A DNA stretch of 64,000 nucleotides from Myxococcota bacterium (GTDB taxonomy: Bacteria > Myxococcota > XYA12-FULL-58-9 > JALHOP01). The notes under the pieces are model-generated. The model did no database searches. It had not been told where the DNA came from and saw only the letters and a list, made by a program, of their open reading frames with translations. Positions 14,808-27,551 of this stretch are shown in pieces. The stretch covers positions 558,001 to 622,000 of the forward strand of contig JALHOP010000002.1 in NCBI GenBank assembly GCA_022842935.1, written 5' to 3'. Both the position numbers and the translations under genes were made by a program. Numbering within the stretch: position 1 is the stretch's first letter; every line of letters begins with the position of its first letter.

Positions 14808-14880
14808 GCCCAGGTAGCTCAGTTGGTAGAGCAGAGGACTGAAAATCCTCGTGTCGGTGGTTCGATTCCGCCCCTGGGCA
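14808..14880 (+). tRNA. tRNA-Phe (GAA)
   Basis: 73 nt, full cloverleaf: acceptor GCCCAGG/CCTGGGC, D arm GCTC..GAGC, anticodon stem GAGGA/TCCTC around CTGAAAA (anticodon GAA), T arm GGTGG-TTCGATT-CCGCC, discriminator A. CCA is not encoded. Its 3' 43 bases form the left attachment site of the adjacent integrated element. Confidence 0.95.
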
Positions 14881-14883
14881 CTT
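14838..14883. repeat. attL: 46-bp direct repeat within tRNA-Phe
   Basis: Runs from the tRNA anticodon loop through the discriminator base plus three bases (CTT). Identical to 27506-27551. Because the intact tRNA lies on this side, the element keeps the tRNA functional. Confidence 0.9.
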
Positions 14884-14954
14884 TCCGATTCCGCAATCAC
14901 ATCGCTGTCCTTGTCGCCGCTCGCACTCGAAGTAACTGGAGCGTTGCGTCGCTC

Positions 14955-14974
14955 TGACAGCAGTTTTGACAGCA
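14955..14974 (+). repeat. Left integrase arm-type site pair
   Basis: Two TGACAGCA octamers at 14955 and 14967, period 12, about 70-90 bp inside attL. The same pair, spacing and orientation recur inside attR at 27381-27400. Probable arm-type binding sites for the integrase. Confidence 0.6.
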
Positions 14975-15025
14975 AGCCCAGTCCAAACGATCGTCAGCGA
15001 GTCCATCGGGCGTGCGAGTTGCGCC

Positions 15026-15586
15026 GTGCATACCGACCACGAGATCTTCGAAGAGCTTTGGCAAGAATTCGCTCGCGTCGATACGCTGCGCCTCGTCTTC
15101 AAGGGACTGTACGCCGACGACACTGTCGAAGGCCTGAATCGCCATGCCTCATGGCTCTTCAGCGAAATTCAGCGTGCTCTCGGCGACACCTTGCTCATGC
15201 AGATCGCACGCATGGCCGACCCAGACTCGAACGCATTGACCTTCCGCAAGTTGTTTAATCGACTATGCGTGCCGGCCGGTCCGCAGCGCGCCAAAGTCGA
15301 ACAGCAGCTCAGAGACCTCGACGATGCCTGCGAGCCGATCCGAACCCACCGAGACAAGCGAATCGCTCACAACGAAGTGAAGGTGGCGCTGAAATCGCGT
15401 GAACTTCCTACGCTGCTAAATCAGGACATCACGCGCGCATTGAAGGCGATGCAGCCACTGATCGACTCGTTCAATGAGCTTTTGGGCGCCACCAAGAGTT
15501 CGTCGATCGAAGTGCGAAGCGCAGTTGTCGAACAGGCAGAAAGAGTTGCTCGGCACTTCAACGAGCTGGCGTCACTGCCTCGCTGA
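15026..15586 (+). CDS. AbiU2-like HEPN-domain protein
   Basis: 186 aa from GTG 15026; the open frame reaches back to a TTG at 14966 that would overlap the arm-type repeats, so the internal start is preferred but not certain. An all-helical protein with HEIFEELWQEF near the start and HRDKRIAHNE at residues ~108-117. The latter contains R-x5-H, the catalytic motif of HEPN ribonucleases, in the arrangement seen in AbiU2-type abortive-infection proteins. It is the first cargo gene of the integrated element. Inferred role: RNA cleavage in anti-phage defence or toxin activity. No obvious antitoxin partner lies adjacent. Confidence 0.65.
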   Translation: MHTDHEIFEELWQEFARVDTLRLVFKGLYADDTVEGLNRHASWLFSEIQRALGDTLLMQIARMADPDSNALTFRKLFNRLCVPAGPQRAKVEQQLRDLDDACEPIRTHRDKRIAHNEVKVALKSRELPTLLNQDITRALKAMQPLIDSFNELLGATKSSSIEVRSAVVEQAERVARHFNELASLPR

Positions 15587-15989
15587 TAAATCGCCCCTGG
15601 CGCGGACCGTGTGCGCACAGTGGCCCACGAAATTGCGCAGCCCGTGACATCGGACCTGCGCGCCTTGGACGCGGCCGTCACGTCGCTCGCCCGCTGAGCA
15701 CCACTTCGCTCACCGGTTGATAGCCCGCCCCAAGTTCCGGAGGCGCGCCAGCAGCCGGCGTGACGCCGCGACTTCGCACAGTGCGCCACCTCGAGCTCGC
15801 GGCGGCGCGACGGATGGCAGCGCGAGCGGTGGCCCGTCACCACCTCGAGCATGGACCCGGAGCCCACTGTCCGCGCGGCGGCCCCCGCAGCTTGGGGCGG
15901 GCGGTCGCTCACTCGCGGCCCGGCGCGCTGCATGCGACTTCGCTAAAGCGAGCACAGCAGATGCATGCAGCGTGACGGGCACTTTGCGT
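15587..15989. other. 403-bp stretch without a supported gene
   Basis: Very GC-rich. Overlapping ORFs on both strands have Arg/Ser/Pro-rich composition typical of shadow frames. It contains a 12-bp inverted repeat (GCCCGCCCCAAG near 15723 and its complement near 15892) and the structured hairpin at 15926-15972. Confidence 0.5.
15926..15972. terminator. Nested inverted repeat after an exported-protein gene
   Basis: A perfect 10-bp outer stem (CGCTGCATGC / GCATGCAGCG) encloses a second hairpin TCGCT-AA-AGCGA. It lies 18 bp past the stop of the minus-strand gene ending at 15990. No T-run follows, so it may be a terminator, an mRNA-stabilising structure or a cruciform. Confidence 0.35.
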
Positions 15990-16415
15990 TCAATCTTCGA
16001 CCAGCAGGGGTTCGAGATACATCCCTGAACTTCCTTCGACCAGCATCCAAGTCGCGCCCGTATTCACGTTCATCAGGTAGGTGCTCCGCATCGCGATACC
16101 CGAGGAGAAGAGCTGGTAGTTGACCGTTCCAGGTCTCACCTTGTCGAGCGGGTGCGAGCCTCGGCGGATCGACGACCAGCCTGAAACGCCCTCTCGGTTT
16201 GTAAATCGAACCATCTGGTAAACATCGCCTGCAAAGCGGTCGACCTTCCAAGTGCCTTTGACGGCGATGCTGGATTGGACAATCTCGAATCGGGCATCAC
16301 TCGGCACAGTCGTCGAAACATGGACAACCGCTGGTTCGCTCTGGGCACGCACGCTCGAGGCAGCCAAGCACACCAACGAAAAGATTGTCGCACAACCGAC
16401 TATGGCAGCGCTCAT
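15990..16415 (-). CDS. Small exported protein, unknown function
   Basis: 141 aa. ATG 16415 gives MSAAIVGCATIFSLVCLAASSVRAQ, a Sec signal peptide with an A-x-A-type cleavage site (VRA-Q); a TTG at 16451 adds 12 basic residues and is a weaker start. The mature part is ~115 residues of predicted beta strands (VVHVSTTVPSDARFEIVQSS, TWKVDRFAGDVYQMV) with no cysteines. No family recognised. It is part of the element cargo, divergent from the kinase gene, which suggests shared control. Confidence 0.65.
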   Translation of the reverse strand: MSAAIVGCATIFSLVCLAASSVRAQSEPAVVHVSTTVPSDARFEIVQSSIAVKGTWKVDRFAGDVYQMVRFTNREGVSGWSSIRRGSHPLDKVRPGTVNYQLFSSGIAMRSTYLMNVNTGATWMLVEGSSGMYLEPLLVED

Positions 16416-26187: not shown

Positions 26188-27317
26188 GCAAGCGACGCGG
26201 ACACGGCGAGGGGTCGATCTATCAGCGCAAGGACGGCCGATGGGTTGCGGCACTTAGCCTTGGTAATGGTCGGCGCAAGAACTTCTACGGCGCGACTCAC
26301 AAGGAGGTCCGCGATCGCCTCACGGAGGCGGCGCGAGCGCACCAACTCGGCTTGCCGATCGCAGCGGAAAAAGAGCGACTCTCGGCCTTCCTAACGCGTT
26401 GGTTGAACGAAGCCGCGAAGCCTCGGGTTCGAGCGAGCACGTTCGCCAGCTACGAGAGCTTGGTCCGCATTCACATTCTGCCGGAGATCGGCTCGATCGC
26501 TCTCGCGAAGCTCACGCCTTCTGACGTCAACGGGCTGTTGTCACGCAAGCTCGCCGCTGGCTTGTCGCCTCGACGCGTGCAGCTGATTCGCGTGGTGCTG
26601 AGCATGGCCCTCAAGCAGGCGGAGCGATGGGGCATGCTGCCTCGCAATGTCGCCGCGTTGGTGGCGTCGCCTCGCGTTGAGAGGCACGAAGTGCAGCCGC
26701 TCACGCCCGACGAGGCGAGACAGCTCCTCGCTGCCGTTGCTGGCGATCGGCTCGAGGCTTTGTATTCGGTGGCTCTCGCGATGGGCCTACGACAAGGCGA
26801 GGCGCTTGCGTTGCGATGGCAAGACATCGACATCGACAAGGGGCGCGCAGCCGTGCTGGCTTCGCTTCAACGCGTCGACGGGAAACTCCAGCGCGTTGCT
26901 CCCAAGACAAAGCAGAGTCGACGGACTGGCGCCCTGCCGTCAGTTGTTGTGGAAGCGCTACGTCGCCATCGGAACCGGCAGCGCCAAGAGAAGCTGTTGG
27001 CTGGCACTCGTTGGCGTGAAACCGGACTCGTGTTCACAACGAGCATCGGTACCGGCATCGACGCGGGTTACGTCTGGCGCCACTTCCAACGCACACTCAA
27101 GGCAGCCGGTCTGCGGCGGATGCGCTTCCATGACCTACGCCACTCTTGCGCGTCACTGCTTATCGCCCAGGGCATTCATCCAAAGGTGCTGCAAGCGACG
27201 CTCGGCCACGCGACCATCGGCATCACGATGGACACCTACGGCCACTTGTTCAGCGACGCTCAGCGCGACGCCGCCGTGAAGATGGACGCGGCGCTCTCCG
27301 CTGATACCGCTGGGTGA
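26184..27317 (+). CDS. int: Tyrosine site-specific integrase
   Basis: 377 aa. An AP2-like arm-binding N-terminus (GHGEGSIYQRKDGRWVAALSLGNGRRKNFYG, residues 6-36), a SAM-like core-binding domain (~65-160), then the catalytic domain with Arg203 (GLRQGEALALR), beta-loop Lys (KTKQSRR, ~241-243), HDLRH (H316, R319), His342 (LGHATIG) and nucleophile Tyr352 (MDTYGHLFSD). All catalytic residues are present. Located 189 bp from attR and reading towards it; expected to integrate and excise the element at tRNA-Phe. Confidence 0.95.
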   Translation: MSKRRGHGEGSIYQRKDGRWVAALSLGNGRRKNFYGATHKEVRDRLTEAARAHQLGLPIAAEKERLSAFLTRWLNEAAKPRVRASTFASYESLVRIHILPEIGSIALAKLTPSDVNGLLSRKLAAGLSPRRVQLIRVVLSMALKQAERWGMLPRNVAALVASPRVERHEVQPLTPDEARQLLAAVAGDRLEALYSVALAMGLRQGEALALRWQDIDIDKGRAAVLASLQRVDGKLQRVAPKTKQSRRTGALPSVVVEALRRHRNRQRQEKLLAGTRWRETGLVFTTSIGTGIDAGYVWRHFQRTLKAAGLRRMRFHDLRHSCASLLIAQGIHPKVLQATLGHATIGITMDTYGHLFSDAQRDAAVKMDAALSADTAG

Positions 27318-27336
27318 CCATCACAAGGTGACTTTT

Positions 27337-27350
27337 GCGCCACTAGGCGC
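27337..27350 (+). terminator. Hairpin after integrase
   Basis: GCGCC-ACTA-GGCGC, a 5-bp GC stem 20 bp after the integrase stop, no T-run after it. Weak candidate. Confidence 0.3.
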
Positions 27351-27380
27351 GAGAGCGGTGCCAGCAGAAGACCAGCATGC

Positions 27381-27400
27381 TGACAGCAATCCTGACAGCA
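27381..27400 (+). repeat. Right integrase arm-type site pair
   Basis: TGACAGCA at 27381 and 27393, period 12, same orientation as the pair near attL. Bases after the second octamer (AAAGCC versus AAGCCC on the left) are also similar. Confidence 0.6.
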
Positions 27401-27505
27401 AAGCCGGCAGACCCGACGAGACACAAACGACGTCAGTGGATCGGAAACGCGTCGGATTTCACGGGGTAGCACACAGCGAGATCCCGGCGGACGCTTCTCG
27501 GCTGA

Positions 27506-27551
27506 ACTGAAAATCCTCGTGTCGGTGGTTCGATTCCGCCCCTGGGCACTT
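27506..27551. repeat. attR: 46-bp copy of the tRNA-Phe 3' end
   Basis: Perfect direct repeat of 14838-14883, starting in the anticodon loop. Lacks the tRNA 5' half, so it is not a tRNA gene. Marks the right junction of the element with host DNA. Confidence 0.9.

Follow-up and report, generated by a model that had tools for sequence, protein, structure and literature searches.

The window analysed here is a stretch of 64,000 nucleotides from the genome of a Myxococcota bacterium (assembly GCA_022842935.1, contig JALHOP010000002.1, positions 558,001 to 622,000 of the forward strand), and all positions below follow its own numbering. At a tRNA-Phe gene it contains what is probably a 12,668-bp integrative, replication-competent genomic island. 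The element is closed by identical direct repeats that reproduce the 3' end of the tRNA gene, candidate arm-type sites lie just inside both ends, and its integrase, excisionase-type helix-turn-helix (HTH) protein, primase-polymerase (prim-pol), and DUF927 helicase are all full length, with catalytic motifs present.

Boundaries, mobility genes, and replication operon

The features that define the ends of the element are the following:

14808..14881, plus strand: tRNA-Phe (GAA), the target gene, intact at the left end (ARAGORN and Rfam tRNA)
14838..14883, plus strand: attachment site attL, 46-bp direct repeat (repeat comparison)
14955..14974, plus strand: left pair of arm-type sites, TGACAGCA twice, 12 bp apart (sites at 14955 and 14967)
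27381..27400, plus strand: right pair of arm-type sites, TGACAGCA twice, 12 bp apart (sites at 27381 and 27393)
27506..27551, plus strand: attachment site attR, 46-bp direct repeat (repeat comparison)

The initial annotation of this DNA, made from the letters alone, had reported perfect 46-bp att repeats, and this was confirmed: attL and attR show 100% identity over 46 bp at a spacing of 12,668 bp, and the repeat consists of the 3' 44 bp of tRNA-Phe followed by TT. The att core has just two copies in the 6.28-Mb genome (25-mer search, at most two mismatches). The element is internal to a 657-kb contig, and its integrated form is therefore no assembly-edge effect.

Heterobivalent tyrosine integrases use paired direct arm-type sites that flank the core. 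One TGACAGCA pair with the 12-bp spacing is found just inside each end of the element and no others occur in the window, while 0 of 20,000 shuffles of both 200-bp ends gave a shared 8-mer pair at equal spacing. Such pairs are what would be expected of integrase arm sites, and they provide evidence for the boundaries that is independent of the att repeat.

In another genome of the same order (G006; L171 4305-5668), a different tyrosine integrase of 450 residues lies directly against tRNA-Phe, so more than one type of element uses this site in the order.

The genes for mobility and replication, together with the region between their divergent operons, are listed below:

26184..27317, plus strand: tyrosine integrase with SAM-like core-binding and catalytic domains (PF00589 E 1.5e-24)
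25297..26187, plus strand: protein with a C-terminal CxxC...CxxC zinc-finger-like motif (open frame, 4-nt overlap with the integrase gene)
25269..25302, plus strand: three 11-nt direct repeats, ATGACATCACG once and ATGATATGACG twice, between the divergent excisionase and integrase operons
25025..25282, minus strand: excisionase-type HTH protein (HTH_17 E 4.7e-15; TIGR01764 E 2.3e-14)
24213..25028, minus strand: archaeo-eukaryotic (AEP) primase-polymerase, Prim-Pol and PriCT_1 (Pfam E 2.5e-51)
22471..24216, minus strand: DUF927 (MCM/Cch-like) replicative helicase, Walker A and B intact (PF06048 E 1.7e-96)
22025..22474, minus strand: orf22025, small protein of the replication operon (GTGA overlaps)
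21384..22028, minus strand: orf21384, conserved helical protein with the ANIANGPQQVNNG motif (homologs on Polaromonas plasmids and IMG/VR contigs)
21260..21487, minus strand: orf21260, small GWTPERRARQ...STGPRT protein (out-of-frame overlap with orf21384, kept in L139-L141)

The integrase expected from the initial annotation was recovered by Pfam with two domains, Phage_int_SAM_3 and Phage_integrase, and shares 36% identity with phage integrases. About 60 N-terminal residues lie outside the SAM-like and catalytic domains and could be the predicted arm contacts. The integrase was dropped as a marker for finding relatives because its type is too common. Regarding the proposed AlpA-like regulator, an excisionase-type HTH protein is indeed present, but it belongs with HTH_17 and TIGR01764, and the Pfam AlpA model gave E 0.086. 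No homolog of the zinc-finger-like protein was found in the searches, and its predicted structure (predicted local distance difference test, pLDDT, 40) was too low in confidence for a fold search; its gene is joined to the integrase gene by an overlap of the ATGA or GTGA type. The three 11-nt repeats overlap the start codon of this gene and are a candidate operator or iteron set.

The prim-pol, the DUF927 helicase, and the overlapping operon of small genes described in the initial annotation were all found as stated. Four-nucleotide overlaps (ATGA, ATGA, GTGA, and GTGA) join the HTH and prim-pol genes, the prim-pol and helicase genes, the helicase gene and orf22025, and orf22025 and orf21384. 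Relatives of orf21384 are located on two Polaromonas plasmids (56% and 46% identity). IMG/VR contigs L139-L141 retain the orf21384/orf21260 pair together with its out-of-frame overlap, which, along with the homologs just mentioned, makes it probable that both are real genes. The predicted structure of orf21384 had a pLDDT of 45, too low for a fold search. The gene was also considered as a clear packaging gene but was not taken as one, given that its homologs appear on plasmids, where RepA/ParA genes are neighbours, and also next to phage-like genes.

Origin of the replication genes and closest known systems

Whole-genome searches covered the phylum (195 genomes), and named bacterial genomes were scanned once with short peptide patterns, so that closer relatives may exist. 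DUF927 is present in 14 other genomes of the phylum, none of them close, and the combined DUF927 and Prim-Pol searches gave no close relative of the element in these 195 genomes. The closest full-length helicases found by tblastn are encoded by Legionella fallonii plasmid III (54%) and by an island in a Variovorax metagenome-assembled genome (52%), followed by that of satellite phiAH14b at 36% identity. Hence, the suggestion of a family of myxobacterial satellites was not sustained for this element: the kin of the helicase are in Pseudomonadota, and within the material searched the element is the sole member of its own family. The Variovorax helicase gene (L005 3649-5943) is interrupted close to its 3' end by an in-frame stop (5668-5670), and could be a pseudogene or reflect an assembly error.

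When 65 helicases were placed in a tree, that of the window fell together with those from Legionella and Variovorax (support 81 and 93). The wider clade takes in satellite phiAH14b and plasmids, and its sister clade holds contigs resembling capsid-forming phage-inducible chromosomal islands (cfPICIs). Fused proteins from Myxococcaceae fall far off on a long branch, in what was a quick search with several long branches. Four IMG/VR contigs of 14.5-16.5 kb (L100, L102, L106, and L107) encode an integrase, DUF927, and a portal, a protease-capsid fusion and/or a terminase, and look like capsid-forming satellites.

The partners of related helicases were surveyed in 55 loci, comprising 49 from an IMG/VR profile search plus L005 and L008-L012. 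A Toprim-type primase accompanies the helicase in 36 of the 55 and a prim-pol in none, according to a hidden Markov model (HMM) search in which the same prim-pol HMM recovered known prim-pol cases; in some of the remaining loci, DUF6371, Toprim, or DUF3854 regions are present at the N-terminus. The nearest relative of the window prim-pol is encoded on a Thermaerobacter plasmid (50%; weak support in the tree). It was discarded as a sign of myxobacterial descent, its nearest relatives being from Thermaerobacter and Methylobacterium. Because the related helicases often pair with Toprim primases and never with a prim-pol in these loci, the element is a mosaic, and its replication pair is non-myxobacterial by descent as far as the collections searched show.

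Among described elements, ICETh2 of Thermus thermophilus HB27 comes closest: its 11.3-kb body occupies tRNA-Val and has a 47-nt repeat, an integrase, an excisionase, a prim-pol, and a helicase, and it excises in vivo at low frequency (PMC7693054). Loss of its hel gene suppresses amplification under UV, whereas loss of ppol leaves the copy number as it was and raises DNA uptake 100-1000 fold (PMC7693054). Both elements occupy a tRNA gene, have a repeat taken from its 3' end (47 versus 46 nt) and a similar size (11.3 versus 12.7 kb), and encode an integrase, an excisionase, and a prim-pol, after which comes the helicase as a gene of its own; Meiothermus has a fused PrimPol-DUF927 instead. They differ in the tRNA used (tRNA-Val versus tRNA-Phe) and in the cargo, and the comparison covers the site, the repeat, the size, and the gene kit. 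The initial annotation had inferred a family that had not been described; however, the general architecture is already that of ICETh2 (PMC7693054), and the window element is a replicative integrative island of known architecture.

Satellite phiAH14b of Pseudomonas (KU708005), 16.8 kb, shares with the window element an integrase, an AlpA-type HTH protein, a primase followed by DUF927, and the lack of capsid genes. On the other hand, it has a Toprim primase and a P4-type integrase, and its packaging in the capsids of a helper prophage is supported (PMC4936722). The islands I23, I44, and I55, at tmRNA in Pseudomonas, are alike by description, being islands in tRNA-type genes (tDNA) with a tyrosine integrase, AlpA, defence cargo, and no transfer genes; for one of them, carriage by a jumbo phage was demonstrated (PMC12595487).

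Legionella fallonii LLAP-10 plasmid III (NZ_LN614829; 14.6 kb) encodes, besides the full-length DUF927 protein, an integrase and an HTH protein. In contrast with the window element, it is a free circular replicon with a P4-type integrase in which no prim-pol was found. On this plasmid (L008 9435-12799), a gene for an OLD-like ATPase/TOPRIM nuclease adjoins a UvrD-type helicase gene, a Gabija-like pair.

Staphylococcal cassette chromosome (SCC) elements encode a related DUF927 replicative helicase, Cch, and the window helicase matches staphylococcal island helicases in PDB (8tch, 5dgk). SCC elements use serine recombinases and another integration target. Against the NCBIfam model SCCmet_Cch1 the window helicase scores 61, the cut-off being 700. 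Staphylococcal DUF927 islands are cited as encoding an active helicase (PMC5862659), which favours the reading of a replication-competent island.

Proposed mechanism and alternative explanations

In the mechanism proposed for the island, the N-terminus of the integrase would contact the arm sites and its remaining domains the 46-bp core, and, with the HTH protein acting as directionality factor, the enzyme would excise a circle and leave tRNA-Phe intact. The Xis-PrimPol-DUF927-orf22025-orf21384 operon would then replicate the circle, the helicase unwinding and the prim-pol priming, for a short time or as a low-copy plasmid, until it reintegrates. The cargo may serve the host or oppose rival elements, and spread between cells would depend on a helper. 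There is precedent for this mechanism, because ICETh2, with int, exc, ppol, and hel in a tRNA gene, excises and amplifies (PMC7693054). Such a kit can also exist as a free circle, since the nearest helicase is encoded on a 14.6-kb circular plasmid together with an integrase and an HTH protein. Moreover, other tDNA islands of the phylum with a prim-pol and an integrase show equally clear att repeats.

Several points weigh against this interpretation. Neither an excised circle nor an empty site was seen: the att core has no third copy in the assembly, which means that the free attP junction is not in it, and in the search for an empty tRNA-Phe, the flanks in genomes of the same order were too diverged for alignment with the site of the element. 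No replication origin was mapped on the element. Furthermore, the replicative role of the prim-pol is inferred, since ICETh2 could replicate without this enzyme, which acted against incoming DNA as a barrier.

One possibility, to which only a modest probability can be given, is that the element is a phage satellite that excises after helper infection, replicates itself by means of the prim-pol and helicase, and is packaged in helper capsids. Its size and its kit of integrase, excisionase, primase, and helicase would fit, its helicase falls in a clade with that of phiAH14b, a satellite with experimental support (36%; PMC4936722), the sister clade is found on cfPICI-like contigs of 14.5-16.5 kb with few other genes, and homologs of orf21384 and orf21260 adjoin phage-like genes in L140 and L141. 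However, as stated in the initial annotation, the element lacks recognisable genes for structure, packaging, or conjugation, according to Pfam, PHROGs, and NCBIfam. No terminase, capsid-morphogenesis gene, or late-gene activator is recognisable in the element, neither Pfam nor PHROGs revealed a capsid, portal, or terminase of its own, by which cfPICIs are recognised, and PHROGs gave no head or packaging match among the nine element proteins scanned.

P4-like satellites are defined by at least five of seven components (PMC8628076). Only the tyrosine integrase passes in the element (PF00589, E 1.5e-24): AlpA (PF05930, threshold E <=1e-5) gave E 0.086, with HTH_17 in its place, and no element protein matches the Pfam models of Psu, delta, epsilon, and alpha up to E 0.1; bearing on Sid, the PHROGs scan of nine proteins showed no head or packaging match. 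The nearest helicases belong to a plasmid and to a bacterial island, and profile searches whose positive controls worked found neither Phage_portal nor Terminase_6N in the host genome, although helpers could still be virulent or belong to other families. Thus, of the earlier description as a self-replicating satellite-like element, the replication-capable integrative island at tRNA-Phe is well supported and the satellite is unproven. The claim of a gene set in common with P4-like satellites and PICIs is only partly right: the helicase clades do include phiAH14b and cfPICI-like contigs, but these clades also include plasmids, and their helicases pair with Toprim primases. A more specific proposal, which seems unlikely, is that this would be the first Myxococcota satellite, combining an archaeo-eukaryotic-type prim-pol with a DUF927 helicase of a Pseudomonadota satellite and plasmid clade that elsewhere goes with Toprim primases, in which a switch made up of the kinase and the ECF sigma factor, together with a HEPN ribonuclease, would reprogram or defend the host.

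Another tentative explanation, rated as low as that of a phage satellite, is an integrated plasmid-like element, or one mobilised by the conjugation machinery of another element, with no link to phages. The closest helicase and the closest prim-pol are both on plasmids (the circular Legionella fallonii plasmid III, 54%, and the Thermaerobacter plasmid, 50%), as are the Polaromonas homologs of orf21384. Nevertheless, no relaxase or conjugation domain was recognised in the element by Pfam or NCBIfam; pIII, pW9NP1, and the Thermaerobacter plasmid were typed as non-mobilizable, and pH8NP1 has a relaxase that the element lacks.

It is rather improbable that the island is stranded, formerly mobile and now fixed, being copied only with the chromosome. 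That no circle, empty site, or second copy was seen would agree with this, and the lower GC content of several cargo genes (0.57-0.59, versus 0.61-0.65 in the replication genes) would fit piecemeal accretion, but the 46-bp repeats are still identical, the arm sites are intact, and the mobility genes are full length. Least likely of all, the prim-pol and helicase could act mainly as a barrier to foreign DNA and not in replication of the element, as the effect of prim-pol deletion on transformation in ICETh2, where element replication was kept (PMC7693054), and the defence-like HEPN_AbiU2 and kinase cargo might suggest; this is a single experimental case, and the operon also has a helicase, which affected copy number in ICETh2.

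Cargo and other islands in the phylum

The cargo of the island comprises the following genes:

14966..15586, plus strand: HEPN_AbiU2 protein, 206 residues, RDKRIAH motif, true start probably further downstream (PF18734 E 6.8e-18)
15990..16415, minus strand: possibly exported protein, no family (Pfam scan)
16584..17708, plus strand: Ser/Thr protein kinase with catalytic motifs and a C-terminal membrane-like segment (Pkinase E 1.1e-39)
17709..18296, minus strand: extracytoplasmic function (ECF) sigma factor, tail-to-tail with the kinase gene (PF07638 E 2.9e-10; TIGR02984)
18999..19676, plus strand: possibly exported protein, no family (Pfam scan)
19775..20269, plus strand: possibly exported protein, no family (Pfam scan)
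20191..21105, plus strand: possibly exported protein with a PEGA-like C-terminus (Pfam E 0.06)

The HEPN, kinase, and ECF sigma factor genes named in the initial annotation were all supported by Pfam. Gene limits rest on Pfam matches and open frames; a simple caller based on GC at third codon positions (GC3) missed the kinase and HEPN genes. The protein encoded at 20191..21105 shows 44% identity over 68 residues with a 614-residue protein elsewhere in the host genome. By analogy with other systems, it is plausible that the ECF factor is controlled by the neighbouring kinase. The kinase matched many PADLOC models (E 3e-69) and was considered as a PD-T4-6 defence protein; since the models are generic and any such kinase may match, these matches were not taken as a defence call. 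The cargo had been called unlike that of known satellites, which holds, but Ser/Thr kinases are also cargo in a separate family of Myxococcaceae islands.

This family is represented by L041 (G109), L042 (G118), L043 (G157), and L044 (G153), and its cassette consists of an integrase, an excisionase, a fused PrimPol-DUF927 protein, an 82-residue protein, and two Ser/Thr kinases. The att repeats measure 28, 27, and 22 bp at tRNA-Asp (G109), tRNA-Leu (G118), and tmRNA (G157), respectively, and the three islands with both ends found span 13.3-20.1 kb between them. Integrases are 64-82% identical despite the different tDNAs, and replication proteins 76-92%. These islands resemble the window element in their tDNA site, att repeats, integrase, excisionase, PrimPol and DUF927 functions, and Ser/Thr kinase cargo, whereas they differ in the PrimPol-DUF927 fusion, a helicase core only 26-29% identical, a different integrase, and the conserved two-kinase cargo. 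The G109 island also encodes a DUF2381 protein, and a 43%-identical one is present in that of G118. Genomes of 9-13 Mb that encode DUF2380/DUF2381 proteins occur in the phylum, in keeping with Myxococcota. The 12.9-kb island of G092 (L051, ~1-12,700) has an att repeat of 46 bp at tRNA-Gly and encodes a prim-pol and an integrase; its cargo comprises a restriction-modification protein of the MmeI type and an endonuclease of the Mrr type.

Mobile elements of myxobacteria are little described, and an island that has precisely defined ends and brings its own replication genes offers a testable case. The search around it also revealed the analogous but separate kinase-carrying islands of Myxococcaceae at tRNA-Asp, tRNA-Leu, and tmRNA. 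Moreover, the pairing of this prim-pol with this helicase suggests that primase and helicase modules swap between satellites, plasmids, and islands across phyla.

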